Below are positions 1 to 6,148 of a DNA stretch of 6,148 bases, in pieces (within the stretch, counting starts at the first letter, position 1; each line of letters starts with the position of its first letter). The position numbers were made by a program, and so were the translations under genes. This DNA is from Deltaproteobacteria bacterium (GTDB lineage Bacteria > Desulfobacterota > Desulfobacteria > Desulfobacterales > JAFDDL01). The notes under the pieces were generated by a model. It did not search any database, had not been told where the DNA came from, and worked only from the letters and a program-made list of their open reading frames with translations. Location of the stretch: contig JAFDDL010000249.1 in assembly GCA_019310865.1 (NCBI GenBank), positions 1 to 6,148 of the forward strand, written 5' to 3'.

Positions 1-793
1 AAATAAATATTTCCAAAAATACCGATCTTTTATAACGGAAACCAGGGTGGCCGAAATATCGGAGATGGTCTTTTTCAGCGTCCGGACCGTTATCTCGGTA
101 AGGGTCCCTGTTTGTTTAGCCGGCAATGACACGCGAATGCCTTCGGGCCCCAGCTCGACACCATCCCTCACCAGGCAAAGGAGCATAAGGCAGAGAACGC
201 CCACCACCAACGCAAGAAAAAATATCATCTGATAGGTTGACAGATGGCCGATCACGGGAAGAGTTGCGCCGGCATATTCCCCAAAAAATTCTCTAGCCTT
301 GTCAAACCCCCATACTCCCAAGGCCACTGACGGGCGTGGTATATCTTTTGTAAACAATGAGTCCCGCAGGCTCAAGAAGGGCATATCCAATCGCAAACGG
401 TAAGAAAACGAGTATCATAACAATAAGCGGAGTGGTAATCCAAGGCATGAAGATACGCGATATGACGATTAAAATGAAACTTAAAAGAAGCGATTTCTTT
501 ATACCAATGGCGTCAATAAATGGGCCCGCAACGAGTCCAACAATCGCCGTCAGCACAGAAAAGATACCGACATACACGCCGGCCTCAACGTCTCCAAGAC
601 CGCAGTCCACAGAAAGCCATAGTACAAGGGAAAAGGAGATGGCATAGTATGCCGTTCCCTCTAACAATCTGATGCCCGTTATTATCCAAAGTTCTCTGGG
701 TGACGTCCGTAATTCTTTGGCGTAGGACCACAAGATGTAGATTAAGGCGATACCAAATACAACGCAAATGCCGACGACGATAAGATCTATCAT
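1..793 (-). pseudogene. Major facilitator superfamily transporter, N-terminal part, frame broken, runs off the left edge
   Basis: Reading from ATG at 793, the first frame gives about 155 residues with several hydrophobic helices, and ends at a TGA at 302-304 shortly after a KRYTTP motif. The next stretch (from about 330 to position 1) is open in another minus frame. It reads VALGVWGFDKAREFFGEYAG, then a hydrophobic helix (MIFFLALVVGVLCLMLL), a charged loop, and KDRYFWKYLF at the edge. In MFS proteins the KRYTTP loop is normally followed by a full transmembrane helix and then a (W/F)xFDxxR turn. Here the turn follows almost at once, so about 20 codons seem to be missing and the frame is shifted. 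I infer a deletion rather than a single-base error. The start is supported by an upstream in-frame stop (TAG) and a strong promoter; no clear Shine-Dalgarno is seen. The substrate cannot be told. The C-terminal half lies outside the window. Confidence 0.82.
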
Positions 794-841
794 ACCAATT
801 TTACCAATATTTGGCTTATATTCTGGTGGAAACTATTTGCA

Positions 842-870
842 ATATTATCTATTGTTATACAAATTGTCAA
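842..870 (-). promoter_or_regulatory. Sigma-70 promoter for the MFS gene
   Basis: On the minus strand, TTGACA (870-865) is followed after exactly 17 bp by TAATAT (847-842). That is a perfect -35 with a 5/6 match to the -10 consensus. Transcription would begin near 835, leaving a leader of about 40 nt before the ATG at 793. Three copies of an ATTGT(T/C) motif lie in or next to it (851-856, 863-868, and 881-886 in inverse orientation). Two of them form an imperfect inverted pair, ATTGTCAA / TTAACAAT, a possible repressor site. Confidence 0.75.
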
Positions 871-895
871 GAAAATAATTAACAATATTTTTCAC

Positions 896-912
896 AACTA
901 TAATTTATAGTT
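896..912. promoter_or_regulatory. 17-bp perfect palindrome AACTATAA-T-TTATAGTT, possible operator
   Basis: Eight-base arms are perfectly complementary around one central base, 26 bp upstream of the -35 of the transporter promoter. The position suits an activator or repressor binding site. It is AT-only apart from one G/C pair per arm, so chance is possible in this AT-rich stretch. Confidence 0.4.
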
Positions 913-1113
913 ATTATTCATGTTATCAGTATGTTATAGCTATTTTTTGGGGGATGTTTCAGCCGAGGCCGGAGAGGTGTTGTTAGCGGCGGCATAAGTC
1001 TTGGGGGGTCCCCTTACATCCACGCTGATCTGAATTGCCCTGAATAAAAGGTTATATCGATAGTGTTGTAATAGTATCGTTTCGGTAATTGGATTCCCAT
1101 TGTTAAGAAATCC

Positions 1114-1142
1114 TTGACATGGATGTGGGGATTGATAAAAAT
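1114..1142 (+). promoter_or_regulatory. Probable promoter of the AbiEi-like / MNT / HEPN operon
   Basis: A consensus -35 TTGACA sits at 1114-1119. The -10 is less sharp: TAAAAA at 1136-1141 (16-bp spacer) or AAAAAT at 1137-1142 (17-bp spacer), each 4/6. The -10 lies inside the left arm of the inverted repeat at 1131-1147, so a protein bound there would block RNA polymerase. Confidence 0.55.
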
Positions 1143-1180
1143 ACCTAAGGATAATAATAAGTGTAGGTAATTTTATCAAT
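1131..1180. promoter_or_regulatory. 17-bp inverted repeat overlapping the -10 and the start codon: probable autoregulatory operator
   Basis: Left arm ATTGATAAAAATACCTA (1131-1147) and right arm TAGGTAATTTTATCAAT (1164-1180) are complementary at 16 of 17 positions, with a 16-nt spacer. The right arm ends within the ATG of the AbiEi-like gene. AbiEi antitoxins are known to bind inverted repeats in their own promoter and repress it cooperatively, so this is the expected kind of site in the expected place. As RNA it could also fold into a hairpin over the start codon. There is no T-run, so it is not an intrinsic terminator. Confidence 0.65.
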
Positions 1181-1706
1181 GGCAGCGAAAAAAGTCATAC
1201 TACAGGGAACCCGATTTGATAAAGCTGTTGAAATTTTCAGCAAGTTTGGCGGAATGCTTCGTACGGCGCAAGCCCTTCGTAAAGGAATCCACCCCAGCAC
1301 CTTCTATGCATTGCGAGATTCCGGAACGTTGGAAGTGGTGAGCCGAGGCGTGTATCGCCTTGCTGACAGCGAACCATTGGGAAATCCTGACCTGGTGACC
1401 GTAGCAACCCGGATTCATAGTGGTGTCATCTGCCTTATTTCAGCGCTGGCGTTTCACGATATCACAACACAAATACCCCATGAGGTCCATGTGGCACTAC
1501 CGCGCGGTGCGGAAGAACCTCGGTTGGACTATCCACCGATCAGAACATACCGGTTCACCGGTAAGGCGTTTACCGCAGGCACAGTGGTTCATAAAATCGA
1601 TGGTGTTGATGTATGCATTTACAGTCCGGAAAAAACACTCGCCGACTGCTTTAAATTCCGCAACAACTTGAATAAGCCCTCTAGTTTCGCAAGACAAAAT
1701 CCATAG
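1179..1706 (+). CDS. AbiEi-family antitoxin-domain protein (winged-helix regulator), C-terminally truncated
   Basis: The 175-residue product resembles the type IV toxin-antitoxin AbiEi family. Residues about 12-65 form the winged-helix domain (FGGMLRTAQALRKGIHPSTF, then LEVVSRGVYRLAD). Residues 66-157 carry the family core, with PDLVTVATRI, GVICLISALAFH, TTQIPHEVHVALPRGAE and YSPEKTLADCFKFRN. In relatives the FKFRNK segment continues into a helical C-terminal region of roughly 30 or more residues. Here similarity stops at about residue 164, followed by an unrelated tail (NKPSSFARQNP) and a stop. No other frame restores the missing part, so I infer a deletion that joined the gene to the MNT/HEPN pair. 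The ATG at 1179 is the only in-frame start after a stop at 1164-1166, and its ribosome site is weak. The DNA-binding part is intact, so it may still repress its promoter. The usual AbiEii toxin partner is absent. Confidence 0.83.
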   Translation: MAAKKVILQGTRFDKAVEIFSKFGGMLRTAQALRKGIHPSTFYALRDSGTLEVVSRGVYRLADSEPLGNPDLVTVATRIHSGVICLISALAFHDITTQIPHEVHVALPRGAEEPRLDYPPIRTYRFTGKAFTAGTVVHKIDGVDVCIYSPEKTLADCFKFRNNLNKPSSFARQNP

Positions 1707-1728
1707 ATTTCCAAAAAAGGACATTTTG

Positions 1729-2043
1729 ATGATAAGAAAAAGTCTGCTAACCGCCGTAAAAAAAACAATCTACGAAATTGAACCCAGCGCTGTGATTGTT
1801 TTATTTGGCTCACAATCACGCGGAGATTATGAGCATGAGTCGGACTGGGATTTCCTCATCCTTGTTGACGGCCTTGTCGATGAGGATCGCATTGATAGGA
1901 TAAGACATCGATTATATGAACTTGAATGGGAAACAGGAGAGGTGATCTCTTCTATCGTTAGAAATCGTGAGCAATGGGACAGTTACCCGAACACATCGTC
2001 ACCATTTTATAATAACATACGACGGGAAGGTAAAGCATTGTGA
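1729..2043 (+). CDS. Minimal nucleotidyltransferase (MNT family), partner of the HEPN protein
   Basis: The 104-residue protein is a single NTP_transf_2-type domain. The canonical GSx10DxD motif is complete: G27-S28, then D39 and D41, in LFGSQSRGDYEHESDWDFLI. This is the metal- and nucleotide-binding signature of the polymerase-beta superfamily. A clear third carboxylate is not evident; E68 or E71 in ETGEVISSIV lies in the right area. Proteins of this size occur in pairs with a HEPN protein. In the characterised MntA-HepT system the MNT protein is the antitoxin and adds AMP to the HEPN toxin; that role here is by analogy. The ATG at 1729 is preferred over a TTG at 1726 because AAAAAAGG (1713-1720) lies 8 nt upstream. 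The last codons overlap the HEPN start. Confidence 0.9.
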   Translation: MIRKSLLTAVKKTIYEIEPSAVIVLFGSQSRGDYEHESDWDFLILVDGLVDEDRIDRIRHRLYELEWETGEVISSIVRNREQWDSYPNTSSPFYNNIRREGKAL

Positions 2044-2459
2044 GGCAAGAATGGAATAAGGAGCTAATTGCATACCGGCTACATAGAGCACATGAAACCT
2101 TAATTGACGCTGAAATTCTCTTAAAATCAGAACGTTGGAACACTTGCGTTAATCGTCTGTATTATGCATGCTTTTACGCTGTCTCGGCGCTACTCTCAAC
2201 TAAAGGGCTTTCATCTTCAAAGCACTCAGGGATCCGCAGCCTTTTTAACCGGAATTTTGTAAAAACCGGTCTTGTTTCTAGAGGTCTGGCAACCATATAT
2301 AACGATCTTTTTGAAAGACGCCAAGAAAGCGATTACGCGGATTTTGTAGACTTTATAGAAGCCCAGGTTATGCCGTGGTATTCTAAAGCGGAACTGTGCC
2401 TATTCCGTTCAAATCGTCCACCCGTTCCGAACCATTCCGTCCATCCGTTCCGAAGGTAA
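2040..2459 (+). CDS. HEPN-domain protein (putative toxin), 3' end replaced by the IS21 terminus
   Basis: The protein is a four-helix HEPN domain of the PF05168 type. Marks are NRLYYACFYAVSALLSTKGL (residues 38-57), KHSGIRSLF (61-69), NFVKTGL and LFERRQESDYADF (90-102). The start is GTG at 2040, overlapping the TGA of the MNT gene by 4 nt (GTGA), with GGAAGG at 2025-2030 nine bases upstream; this indicates translational coupling. Native sequence ends at residue 119 (codon 2394-2396). The last 20 residues (CLFRS... to the stop) are encoded by the IS21 left end inserted at 2396/2397. Only the end of the last helix is probably lost, so a folded product is possible. The catalytic Rx4-6H ribonuclease motif known from HepT-type toxins is not seen at its usual place. 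It may act as toxin or as a non-catalytic partner. Confidence 0.88.
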   Translation: MRQEWNKELIAYRLHRAHETLIDAEILLKSERWNTCVNRLYYACFYAVSALLSTKGLSSSKHSGIRSLFNRNFVKTGLVSRGLATIYNDLFERRQESDYADFVDFIEAQVMPWYSKAELCLFRSNRPPVPNHSVHPFRR

Positions 2460-2489
2460 TCGTCCAGTCATTCCGAAGTTAACCGTCCA
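2397..2489 (-). repeat. IS21 left-end array: four tandem 23-bp units
   Basis: The core CGTCCA recurs with its last base at 2420, 2443, 2466 and 2489, exactly every 23 bp. Each unit has ATTCCG(A) or GTTCCGA about 10 bp before CGTCCA. They are inverted relative to the right-end units and more degenerate; several lack the second CGGAAT half-site. IstA is expected to bind these. The array also encodes the 20-residue foreign tail of the HEPN protein. Confidence 0.88.
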
Positions 2490-2502
2490 GTTTTTCGGAA
2501 CT

Positions 2503-2513
2503 TAGCGGCGCTG
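2503..2513 (-). repeat. Inner inverted motif, left copy (TAGCGGCGCTG)
   Basis: This is the exact reverse complement of CAGCGCCGCTA at 5998-6008. It lies 14 bp inside the last left repeat unit; the right copy lies 22 bp inside the first right unit. The core AGCGGCGCT is itself an odd palindrome. The rest of 2514-2596 shows no further structure and no clear terminator for the leftward Toprim gene. Confidence 0.5.
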
Positions 2514-2596
2514 TTATTTTACATTGTCAGAGTTGCCCTTTTTAGTCAATGGAGTTACGTCCTAAAGCAATACCAACCTTAATAACTCAGCCATTA

Positions 2597-3631
2597 TCAT
2601 TTTCTTTTCCCTGGATTCGATGAATGCTTTATATTCAGAGTAGAATGGCTCTTTAATCCGGTTTCAATCCAATGTTTCAAGTTAATTTTCTTGAATGCTT
2701 CTCCTGGATCCTTGCCATATTTTTCAGGAACAGGCCAACCAATGGCATTGGGAAGCTCACTGATCAGTCGGGATGTTTTTTCCTTACCGCTTTGGTCATT
2801 ATCCAGGCTAACGAGAATAATCGGCGTGTTTTCAGAAAGGTAGCGGATCATAGCCGGGCTAAATTTCATTGCGGTAGTTCCCATACCTAAAACTCCTATA
2901 TGCTCTGCTGCCTCTTGAGCAATCAGGATCGCGTCTAACTCTGATTCCAGGATCATTAGTGGCTTAGCGGCAGCCACCCCTATGGGATAAGGTGAGTCAG
3001 CATTGCTTCCTTTACTGATTCGGTACCGTTGCTGTCCAGGATTAAAGGTATCAATACGAAATCTGATTCTGATCAGATGGCTTTTACTATCATAACAGGG
3101 AATAAGCAGTTTGGAAGGCATATGTCTTTTTTCAGGCAACCAACCCAAACGATATTGTATGATCGTACCAAGGTCAAGGCCTCGTTGATGAACAAGATAT
3201 GCAATCCTTTCCTTTCCATTAGGCCCCAAAAGGTAAGACCGGCCGACTTGGATTAGTTTTTCAGCGTCACGCTGCCATTTTTTTGTCCGCCACTTTTCTG
3301 GTTTCTTTATCGGGCCAGGGCGATGGAGATTTTGCCGGTTAAGATGCTGGGATGCGGTGTTTTGAACGATTGCTGTCTCTGATAATATGGCCACCGCTTC
3401 AGGGAAACCCATGCCACAATGACGTTGGAGGTACTGAATGCCGTCTCCCACTTCCCCATTGCGTGCCCACCATTTATATAGCCATATTCCATCTTGCAAA
3501 AATAGCTTCAGGCTGTCATGCGCTCTTAAGTGATAATCCTTGCCACAGGAAACTAGCTCAATTCCTAATCCCTTAAGAATGCATGGCAGATCTGCACGTT
3601 TAGCCATTTGAATCTGTTGTGTCGGTATCAT
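2597..3631 (-). CDS. DnaG-like Toprim protein with a degenerate CHC2 domain, IS21 passenger
   Basis: The 344-residue protein has the layout of a DnaG-type primase N-terminal half. Residues about 10-85 resemble the CHC2 zinc-finger domain (WLYKWWARNGEVGDGIQYLQ, then GMGFPEAVAIL). Its metal ligands are gone: the usual CxxH is replaced near YHLRAHDSL, and the second CxxC reads WWAR. Residues about 145-200 resemble the primase core (RGLDLGTIIQYRLGWLP, then KLLIPCYDSKSHLIRIRFR). Residues about 224-312 form a Toprim domain, with E229 in LMILESELDAI, D277 and D279 in VSLDNDQSGKEK, and a later KDPGEAF. These are the metal-binding acidic positions and look intact. The start at 3631 follows AGGAGG (3643-3638) with a 6-nt gap and overlaps the istB end by 32 nt. 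A second ATG at 3607 would give an 8-nt overlap but lacks a ribosome site. Its role in transposition is unknown; primase activity is not shown. It could act on replication forks or target DNA with IstB. Confidence 0.82.
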   Translation of the reverse strand: MIPTQQIQMAKRADLPCILKGLGIELVSCGKDYHLRAHDSLKLFLQDGIWLYKWWARNGEVGDGIQYLQRHCGMGFPEAVAILSETAIVQNTASQHLNRQNLHRPGPIKKPEKWRTKKWQRDAEKLIQVGRSYLLGPNGKERIAYLVHQRGLDLGTIIQYRLGWLPEKRHMPSKLLIPCYDSKSHLIRIRFRIDTFNPGQQRYRISKGSNADSPYPIGVAAAKPLMILESELDAILIAQEAAEHIGVLGMGTTAMKFSPAMIRYLSENTPIILVSLDNDQSGKEKTSRLISELPNAIGWPVPEKYGKDPGEAFKKINLKHWIETGLKSHSTLNIKHSSNPGKRK

Positions 3632-4385
3632 TTTTTTCCTCCTGGTTTTTGGGAGCTTTAGCACGTAATTTTCTCATAGATTCTCCTTTGAGATTGATTT
3701 TGTGTGCATTGTGTATTAGCCGGTCAAGGATGGCATCGGCAATCGTCGGATCCCGGATATTGTCATGCCAGTTTTCGATGGGCAGCTGTGTGGCAACGAT
3801 GGTGGAAGAAAGTGAGTGTCTGTCTTCAATCACTTCTAAAAGGTCCCGACGTTCCGCAGCGTTCATGGGAGCAAGGCCGAGGTCATCGAGGACCAGAACT
3901 CTTGTTTTAGTTAGTTTTTTCATGAGCTTGGGATAACTTCCATCAGCCCTGGCAATGGCAAGTTGCTGAAAGAGATTAGGGATTCTGATATAAAATGCTG
4001 AATAACTCATGCGACAAGCCCGATTAGCCAAAGCACAGGTTAGATAGGTTTTTCCGACCCCGGTCGGACCGGTGATAATGATGTTCTGAGCATTTTTAAT
4101 CCACTCACAGTTAGCCAGGTGCAGGATCACGGACTTGTTGATGCCCCTGGGGGTTTTGAAGTCGATATCCTCGACACAGCCATTGATTTTGAGTTTTGCA
4201 TTGCTGAGCAGGCGTTTCATACGGCGCTCCTCGGTCCAGCTCCAATGGTAATCAACCAGCAGACCGAAACGCTCCTCGAAGCAAAGCTCGGCCATATTGG
4301 GTTGTTGTAACTGATCTTTGAAAGCCTCTGCCATACCGTTTAGTTTCATTGCATAGAGTTTTTCCAGGGTCTGTTCATTAAGCAT
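3600..4385 (-). CDS. istB: IS21 helper ATPase IstB
   Basis: The 261-residue AAA+ ATPase has Walker A GPTGVGKT at residues 106-113, Walker B VLVLDDLG with D167 and D168, a sensor-1-like strand STIVATQLP around 194-202, and the family ending DAILDRLIHNAHKINLKGESMR. The N-terminal helices (MLNEQTLEKLYAMKLNGMAEAF) and the WTEERRMKRLLSNAKL region are typical of IstB. IstB is related to the helicase loader DnaC; it binds target DNA, oligomerises and stimulates IstA. Of two adjacent ATGs (4388 and 4385), the second is preferred because AGGAGG (4397-4392) lies 6 nt away. It overlaps istA by 8 nt (ATGCTTAA), suggesting coupled translation. The C-terminal tail (KNQEEKNDTDTTDSNG) is polar, and its coding DNA holds the ribosome site and start of the Toprim gene. 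Confidence 0.97.
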   Translation of the reverse strand: MLNEQTLEKLYAMKLNGMAEAFKDQLQQPNMAELCFEERFGLLVDYHWSWTEERRMKRLLSNAKLKINGCVEDIDFKTPRGINKSVILHLANCEWIKNAQNIIITGPTGVGKTYLTCALANRACRMSYSAFYIRIPNLFQQLAIARADGSYPKLMKKLTKTRVLVLDDLGLAPMNAAERRDLLEVIEDRHSLSSTIVATQLPIENWHDNIRDPTIADAILDRLIHNAHKINLKGESMRKLRAKAPKNQEEKNDTDTTDSNG

Positions 4386-5943
4386 CATATACCTCCTTTG
4401 ATTCGTAATAGTGTTTGCCACGGATATTATCGTGAGTAACGGGGGGTGTGTTTTCAGCCGGATCAAATAGAAGCGGTTGCTGATCGAGTCCATTTTTGAG
4501 GATCGATTTTACACTCTTATAGGAGAAGCTTTTGATAATCAGAGCACGGCTGCAGGCATTCTCCAATCGCTGTGGGGAGTAGTGTTTTGCCAAGCTCATG
4601 ATACCCAGGCATGATCTAAAGCCTTGTTCCGGATGAGGTCTGCTGTTCAAGATATGCGTTACAAGCTTTTGAGTATTTGGGCCATTTTCCCCAGCCCATT
4701 TGATAATTGCTGAAGGCGTCCACTCAAGATATTTTTGATGAGATTTGGGCATGTGTGCCTTCAGCGTGGTAGATTTGCCTGGGATATAACTTCGTTGATG
4801 GCTGGCTGCCCGTTGATTCTTGAATAGGACTTCAACCACAGTGGCGGTCAAGCGCATATCAACCTGCTCTTTTGCCAGTTGATAGGGGACGCTGTAATAG
4901 TGGCGGTCGATCTCGATATGATAATCGATATTGACCCTGGCCCTTTTCCATTCAGCATATTCATAGGCCCGTGACGGAAGGGGTTTGAGTGCGGGCTTGT
5001 CGATGGTTTCAAACAATTTGCTGCGAGTCGAGTCAAGTTTCTGGAATTTGCGATTGTTGAGTTGCTCGAGTTTTTGGGCAATGAGTTTATTGAGCTCTGC
5101 CAAGCTGAAGAAGCTGTGATTTCTCAGCGCTGCCAGTATCCAACGCTCAGAGACAAGCACTGCGGATTCAACCTTGGCCTTATCCTTTGGCTTTCTTACG
5201 CGTGCCGGAATTACGGTTGTGTCGTAATGTTCCGCCAGGTCCTGATAAGTCGGGTTGATATCGGGCTCATATCGACAGGGATGGGTCACACCGGATTTGA
5301 GGTTATCTGGGACCAGGATTTGAGCAACACCACCGAAGAATTCAAAAGCATGGACATGGGATTTGATCCAGGAGGCTAAATCCTGGGTTAAGGACGCTTC
5401 AGCGAAGGTGTAATTACTGGCGCCTAAAGTGGCCACGAATATCTGTGCTTCGGTGATCTCCCCGGTTTTGGGGTCCACTATAGAGACCGTCTGACCGGCA
5501 TAATCGATGAAAAGTTTCTCTCCGGCTCGGTGCTCCTGTCTTAGGGTTATGTCCAGTTTTTTGACCCACTGCCGATAAAGATTGCAAAACTGGCTGTACT
5601 GATACCCATCGGGATTTACCTGTTTGTATTCGTACCAAAGTAGCTGAAGGGTAACACTTTTTTTCTTCATCTCTTGGTACAGATATTCCATATCAGGCAT
5701 CTGACGATTTGCAGCCACAGGGTTTTGTGTAACCGCAAAAAGCAGATTCTCAAGGGCAGCATCATCCATTCCAGGCTCAAGCGGCCATGAAAGACCAGCC
5801 AATTTGGCTCTAAGAAAATAATCCGCTACCGTACTGTGGGAAATAGAGCAGCTGATACCGATTTGACGGTTGCTCAATGAACAGGCCCATTTTAGTCTGA
5901 GAATTTCTTTGATTTTTCGCATGGATAATCTCTCCTTTGCCAT
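4378..5943 (-). CDS. istA: IS21 DDE transposase IstA
   Basis: The 521-residue transposase begins with a helix-turn-helix (MRKIKEILRLKWACSLSNRQIGISCSISHSTVADY, residues about 8-42) for binding the terminal repeats. The integrase core follows, with a DDE triad visible as D147 (KLFIDYAGQTV), D213 (ILVPDNLKSGV) and E259 (DKAKVESAV), spaced 65 and 45 residues. A Mu-transposase-like beta-barrel follows (HIEIDRHYYSVPYQL, about 341-356), then a C-terminal part including RPHPEQGFRSCLGIM. Length is normal for the family. The ATG at 5943 is preferred over an upstream ATG at 6090 because AGGAGG (5954-5949) is 5 nt away, and because the extra 49 codons run through terminal-repeat DNA. It catalyses strand cleavage and transfer at the TG...CA tips together with IstB. 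Confidence 0.97.
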   Translation of the reverse strand: MAKERLSMRKIKEILRLKWACSLSNRQIGISCSISHSTVADYFLRAKLAGLSWPLEPGMDDAALENLLFAVTQNPVAANRQMPDMEYLYQEMKKKSVTLQLLWYEYKQVNPDGYQYSQFCNLYRQWVKKLDITLRQEHRAGEKLFIDYAGQTVSIVDPKTGEITEAQIFVATLGASNYTFAEASLTQDLASWIKSHVHAFEFFGGVAQILVPDNLKSGVTHPCRYEPDINPTYQDLAEHYDTTVIPARVRKPKDKAKVESAVLVSERWILAALRNHSFFSLAELNKLIAQKLEQLNNRKFQKLDSTRSKLFETIDKPALKPLPSRAYEYAEWKRARVNIDYHIEIDRHYYSVPYQLAKEQVDMRLTATVVEVLFKNQRAASHQRSYIPGKSTTLKAHMPKSHQKYLEWTPSAIIKWAGENGPNTQKLVTHILNSRPHPEQGFRSCLGIMSLAKHYSPQRLENACSRALIIKSFSYKSVKSILKNGLDQQPLLFDPAENTPPVTHDNIRGKHYYESKEVYDA

Positions 5944-5947
5944 ATAT

Positions 5948-5970
5948 ACCTCCTCAATATTTTTTGAGGA
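5948..5970 (-). promoter_or_regulatory. Hairpin covering the istA Shine-Dalgarno
   Basis: In the istA messenger, UCCUCAA (5970-5964) can pair with UUGAGGA (5957-5951) across a 6-nt AAAAUA loop, making a 7-bp stem. The second arm contains part of the GAGGAGGU ribosome site, which ends at 5948, 4 nt before the start codon. Folding would reduce IstA translation. Low transposase translation by structure at the ribosome site is known in other IS families; here it is inferred. Confidence 0.55.
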
Positions 5971-5989
5971 AACATACCTTTGGCAAGCT

Positions 5990-6016
5990 AAATTATCCAG
6001 CGCCGCTATGTAATTT
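5990..6016. promoter_or_regulatory. 27-bp dyad AAATTA-N3-AGCGCCGCT-N3-TAATTT upstream of istA
   Basis: Three symmetrical blocks share one centre at 6003: AAATTA (5990-5995) with TAATTT (6011-6016), around the odd palindrome AGCGCCGCT (5999-6007). Outside these, GGCAA (5982-5986) and TTGCC (6017-6021) extend the pairing with a 3-nt bulge. It lies 47-73 bp upstream of the istA start, between the gene and the repeat array, so it may be an operator or the site of the istA promoter. I could not fix a convincing -35/-10 pair here. Confidence 0.45.
5998..6008 (+). repeat. Inner inverted motif, right copy (CAGCGCCGCTA)
   Basis: It matches the reverse complement of 2503-2513 over all 11 bases and forms the core of the dyad at 5990-6016. 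Presence at both ends suggests an end-specific function beyond istA regulation. Confidence 0.5.
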
Positions 6017-6030
6017 TTGCCAACTCCGAT

Positions 6031-6148
6031 GTGGACGGAATCAATCGCAATGGGTGGACGGAATGGTTCGGAATCAGTGGACGGAATCAATCGGAATGGG
6101 TGGACGATTTAATTCGGAATCAGTGGACGGAATGCGTCGGAATACGCA
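6031..6148 (+). repeat. IS21 right-end array: five tandem 23-bp units plus the terminal GCA
   Basis: Units begin at 6031, 6054, 6077, 6100 and 6123, each with GTGGACG and exactly 23 bp long. The consensus is GTGGACGGAATnnnTCGGAATnn. Each unit holds two CGGAAT half-sites 10 bp apart, about one helical turn. Unit 4 has a damaged first half-site (GTGGACGATTT), and unit 1 a changed second one (CGCAAT). The element tip CA is at 6147-6148, the last bases of the window. Confidence 0.92.

Follow-up and report, generated by a model that had tools for sequence, protein, structure and literature searches.

The window analysed here is a stretch of 6,148 nucleotides from a Deltaproteobacteria bacterium of the order Desulfobacterales (assembly GCA_019310865.1, contig JAFDDL010000249.1, positions 1 to 6,148). 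It carries an IS21-family insertion sequence (IS) of ~3.75 kb on the reverse strand (2397..6148), in which a third gene, for a zinc-less Toprim protein, follows the two transposition genes. The transposase gene istA (4378..5943; 521 amino acids (aa); NCBIfam NF033546, 279 bits against a cut-off of 160) overlaps by 8 nt with istB, which encodes an AAA+ helper ATPase (3600..4385, stop codon at 3600-3602; 261 aa; NF038214, 253 bits, cut-off 200). The third gene, on the same reverse strand (2597..3631; 344 aa; Pfam Toprim_2, 30.4 bits, cut-off 22.1), begins with an ATG at 3631, 32 nt within istB, and is preceded on that strand by an AGGAGG at 3638..3643, a motif that also precedes the istA and istB starts. 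An earlier note on this DNA had placed the gene inside the terminal repeats, on the istA/istB strand, with its own AGGAGG and a start within istB, and the coordinates bear this out. It is best explained as an accessory belonging to the insertion sequence rather than as a chance neighbour.

The element shows the IS21 features of an IstA, an IstB whose gene overlaps istA, and terminal arrays that are mutually inverted. The left array (2397..2501) is built of 23-bp repeats forming the inverted repeat pairs I1-I4, and the right array (6031..6148) combines these pairs with the direct 23-bp repeat family D1; the repeat spacing is 23 bp, as in ISPsy14. The ends were placed by lining up the two termini and setting them against the first bases of contig L002, which bears a related element: TGCCT-ATTCCG is found at 2397 and its counterpart TGCGT-ATTCCG, on the other strand, at 6148; L002 begins at the same place. 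By this comparison the element probably spans 2397 to the window's final base, its right flank, along with any target-site duplication, lying beyond the window end; the window probably ends where the assembly broke at the edge of a repeated element. ISPsy14-like elements likewise have istA and istB flanked on either side by arrays of 23-bp repeats, and their IstA is ~56% identical. The ISPsy14 copy in locus L131 consists of istA and istB only, whereas the window element adds the ~1-kb third gene between istB and the terminal array.

Judged by its sequence, the third gene encodes a primase catalytic core related to phage-type Toprim primases, in which a domain free of zinc, marked by an invariant H...WLYKWW signature, stands in place of the zinc ribbon. 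The window protein has a DnaG-type RNA polymerase domain with the Toprim acids but lacks both the CHC2 cysteines of DnaG primase and a family-level score, matching the dnaG model TIGR01391 partially, at 44 bits and far under the cut-off of 283.6. With 207 homologues at E ≤ 0.001, the best of them 90% identical across the whole length, the family lies far beyond chance. In an alignment of 117 sequences (113 listed homologues of at least 300 aa plus the proteins of the window, L001, L107 and the incomplete L002; the L001 protein is identical to P0116 and both are included, and another listed homologue is close to L002), E229 is kept in 115 and D277 and D279 in 116, L002 being the sole gap for the last two. 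The zinc pattern C-x2-[CH]-x(8-35)-C-x2-C occurs in 0 of the 117; H38 is conserved in all of them, and of the zinc-type ligands it is the cysteines that were lost. The claims of the earlier note that the acids E229, D277 and D279 are kept and the CHC2 zinc ligands lost thus hold for the window protein, which matches no zinc family, including the P4-alpha/T7-type Zn_Ribbon_Prim, and for nearly all of its aligned relatives. Weak matches to Zn_ribbon_DnaG, under the cut-off of 24.9 bits, come from the proteins of L107 (16.7 bits) and L001 (17.4 bits). A Pfam scan of the window protein, which ends soon after the core, returned nothing beyond Toprim_2, no search having been aimed at a helicase-binding domain.

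Phage-type Toprim primases with a Zn_Ribbon_Prim or CHC2 ribbon (loci L003-L096) are, in most loci, 25-37% identical to the window protein over the core and carry the zinc motif in 83 of 94 cases, against none in the window's family. Human Twinkle, unlike the window protein, has a helicase domain, and we take it to have lost the catalytic residues that are kept in the window's family.

Relatives of the protein were read in four independent contexts (the window, L002, L001 and genome G190), two of which adjoin istB and two other transposase modules. L002, a 3010-bp contig of a Neomarinimicrobiota metagenome-assembled genome (MAG), has the gene order of the window and the same kind of terminal repeats at its start, with products 70% (istA), 76% (istB) and 58% (Toprim) identical to those of the window, and stops within the Toprim gene. 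Contig L001 (5013 bp), from a Chitinivibrionales MAG, encodes a transposase in which rve and Mu-C domains are recognised, followed by an AAA_22 ATPase and, 13 nt behind the ATPase gene, a Toprim protein 47% identical to that of the window. We label this ATPase as of the TniB/ExeA kind, the nearest NCBIfam model, TIGR03015, scoring under its cut-off; the nearest named family for the transposase is IS481-like (138 bits, below the cut-off of 224). No convincing inverted pair marking element ends was found within the contig. A 189-aa open reading frame (ORF) with several cysteines lies ahead of the transposase (366-935); it has no Pfam or NCBIfam match and may belong to the L001 element.

The fourth context is an IS110 unit in G190, taken to be Desulfonema limicola, in which an IS110 transposase (NF033542, 207 bits, cut-off 140; DEDD PF01548, 4.2e-30; Transposase_20 PF02371, 9.8e-17) is followed after 13 nt by a Toprim gene, whose product is 44% identical to that of the window, and then by a 148-aa ORF without a family match; no AAA+ gene was found in the unit. 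The unit measures 3648 bp and is present in eight copies, 99.7-99.97% identical to the copy in locus L116. The Toprim gene accompanies 8 of 8 transposase copies, and a transposase 8 of 8 full-length Toprim genes, none of which contains a stop; two further Toprim matches in the genome are a 49-residue fragment and a weak match in another frame, of 609 aa. The Toprim gene clearly moves together with the IS110 unit. Among the eight copies, seven different right flanks occur; on the left, five copies share one repeated sequence and another two resemble each other. The insertions therefore do not count as eight independent events in unrelated sequence. Targeting of the replication origin was considered, since seven of the eight copies fall within ~80 kb around chromosome position 1, and rejected, because dnaA lies at 2.87 Mb; the clustering reflects site preference or local duplication, as the shared left flanks indicate. 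On contig C1, all eight copies would point along the direction of replication, should the terminus be opposite dnaA.

Several other parts of the IS110 unit deserve a record. The 148-aa ORF behind the Toprim gene (L116 5486-5932) has no Pfam, NCBIfam or PADLOC match, and its 18 homologues share a strongly conserved C-terminal stretch; a 110-aa ORF in the IS110 relative L179, which has no Toprim gene, resembles that stretch. Contigs of 3741 and 4191 bp are each listed for a Toprim protein (P0096 and P0104, both on the tree branch of the G190 protein) and for a relative of the 148-aa ORF (P0130 and P0128), the contigs being equated by equal size only. Ahead of the genes is a structured leader of 199 nt (L116 2967-3165; z -4.1 against shuffles) and behind them a long non-coding tail (5933-6614), two stretches of which share CGTCCGTAGAGACCA. 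Leader and tail are candidates for a guide RNA, although Rfam at gathering score gave no RNA family in L116, nor in L001, L002 or the window.

Related elements without the gene were found for both IS families. Among 378 Desulfobacteria genomes searched at E ≤ 1e-120 (three candidates scored per genome, so copies may be missed), IstA relatives occur in 22, at 27 loci and with 43-72% identity; none of the 27 shows the Toprim gene, and 24 show istB, followed by more than 500 bases of sequence in 19 and by 2-300 in five. An equivalent search with the IS110 transposase (367 genomes, E ≤ 1e-60, four candidates scored per genome, again with possible missed copies) found relatives in 31 genomes, G190 included, and no Toprim gene at the 29 loci outside G190, where ~1.5 kb follows the match in 20 and 1-559 bases in nine. 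In the pGLOV01 copy an IS3 element stands behind istB, with no Toprim gene. The question raised by the earlier note, whether intact elements exist without the gene, is therefore answered in part: the gene is optional in the wider IS21 subgroup, as the 27 loci, ISPsy14 and pGLOV01 show, and no such gene-free copy was seen for the window's own branch, which is known from two bearers. The window and L002 are sisters in trees of IstB (98/95) and IstA (88/85) among neighbours without the gene, a placement that fits one gain in this branch, with these two as the only bearers known. Taken together, its presence in some elements and absence from related ones mark the gene as an accessory that elements can do without, and repeated gain is the simplest account of its distribution.

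The Toprim family is rare in the genomes searched. At E ≤ 1e-45, the class of G003 (389 genomes) yields a single genome with close relatives, G190; the order of G190 (389) and its family (6) each yield G190 alone, and the phyla of G001 (167) and G002 (245) yield only G001 and G002 themselves; five candidates per genome were scored in the class and order searches, and copies may be missed. Of 46 loci recovered by scanning genome contigs, L001 and L002 alone fall into the close family, and tblastn of the window protein at 1e-5 found no match in plasmid and phage collections.

What might such a protein do for a transposon? We favour, at a probability of roughly 0.35, the reading that it is an accessory primase core helping DNA synthesis on a circular transposition intermediate. 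IS21 and IS110 are both among the eight families that, according to PMC9333248, use copy-out-paste-in transposition with circular intermediates. At least two unrelated transposition systems, and probably a third, appear to have recruited the Toprim family, whose gene in every case sits directly behind the transposase module. The circular intermediate would have to be completed by DNA synthesis, and the Toprim protein, if a working enzyme that makes primers, could lay primers on it or extend its ends, leaving the element less dependent on host replication. In a broader form, a portable transposition primase, the zinc-free core would have been recruited separately by DDE transposases of IS21, by DDE transposases with a TniB/ExeA-like ATPase and by DEDD transposases of IS110, each for its own DNA-synthesis step; we propose this tentatively and regard it as rather doubtful.

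Several points weigh against a priming role. The zinc domain is the template reader in DnaG and T7 primases, and priming without that domain may be poor. The fold evidence for residues 1-109 is slight, and the related IS21 (0/27) and IS110 (0/29) elements manage without the gene. Furthermore, IS481-like elements, nearest to the L001 transposase, are absent from the family list of PMC9333248.

Alternatively, the Toprim protein may be a nuclease or processing enzyme that cuts or trims branched transposition intermediates and does no priming, which we consider unlikely. Similarly improbable is a role as passenger or decoy, in which a primase core of phage origin would interfere with phage or plasmid replication to the benefit of host or element. 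Zinc-bearing primases on viral contigs are indeed numerous among its distant relatives (50 loci), and the gene is optional; against this, it stands behind a transposase in all four contexts read, its kept catalytic residues speak against a dead decoy, and the window protein matches no PADLOC defence model at 0.001. None of the 50 viral loci holds a member of the close family, and on viral contigs neither IstA nor the L001 transposase has a relative; the IS110 transposase has two there, at 29-30%.

The earlier note had instead coupled the protein to IstB, a DnaC relative, as resembling a replication-initiation pair that might steer insertion to replication forks or prime repair or replication of the integrated element. 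IstB is indeed a close paralogue of DnaC, according to PMC11208146, the two genes overlap, and L002 retains the istA-istB-Toprim order. A specific partnership is weakened by the 44% identical relative that stands behind an IS110 transposase in 8 of 8 copies of a unit that yielded no AAA+ gene, and by the 47% identical relative behind the TniB/ExeA-type ATPase of L001. Moreover, PMC11208146 reports that IstB bends target DNA and activates IstA, a role that accounts for the protein without invoking helicase loading. Nothing seen points to forks as targets, and the G190 cluster lies far from dnaA; this pairing now seems distinctly improbable. A neutral hitchhiker without any transposition function would fit the related elements that lack the gene, and is made very improbable by catalytic residues that persist in 115-116 of the 117 sequences, the association with different transposases and the eight stop-free copies in G190.

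Beside the element, the window holds a defence- or toxin-antitoxin-like cluster (1179-2459) comprising an AbiEi-like protein (PADLOC, 7.8e-53), a nucleotidyltransferase (PF01909; PADLOC candidate PDC-S09) and a HEPN protein (PF05168, 2e-17, matched over residues 12-105). If the element begins at 2397, the HEPN frame is interrupted after ~119 codons, past the matched domain. Directly upstream of the AbiEi-like gene, a near-perfect palindrome (1131-1180; 17-nt arms, 94% complementary, 16 nt apart) is possibly its operator.

The IS21 and IS110 families are known; a primase-like accessory enzyme and its spread across them appear undescribed in the literature searched, where none of the titles listed for the combination concerns a primase or Toprim gene in either family. 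To our knowledge, insertion sequences leave DNA synthesis to the host. The compact zinc-free primase core would offer material for biochemistry, and an accessory protein to try with IS110 recombinases. If the protein does serve DNA synthesis on transposition intermediates, whether an insertion sequence can bring its own replication enzyme would become testable, and a bottleneck common to the life cycles of unrelated insertion sequences would be indicated.
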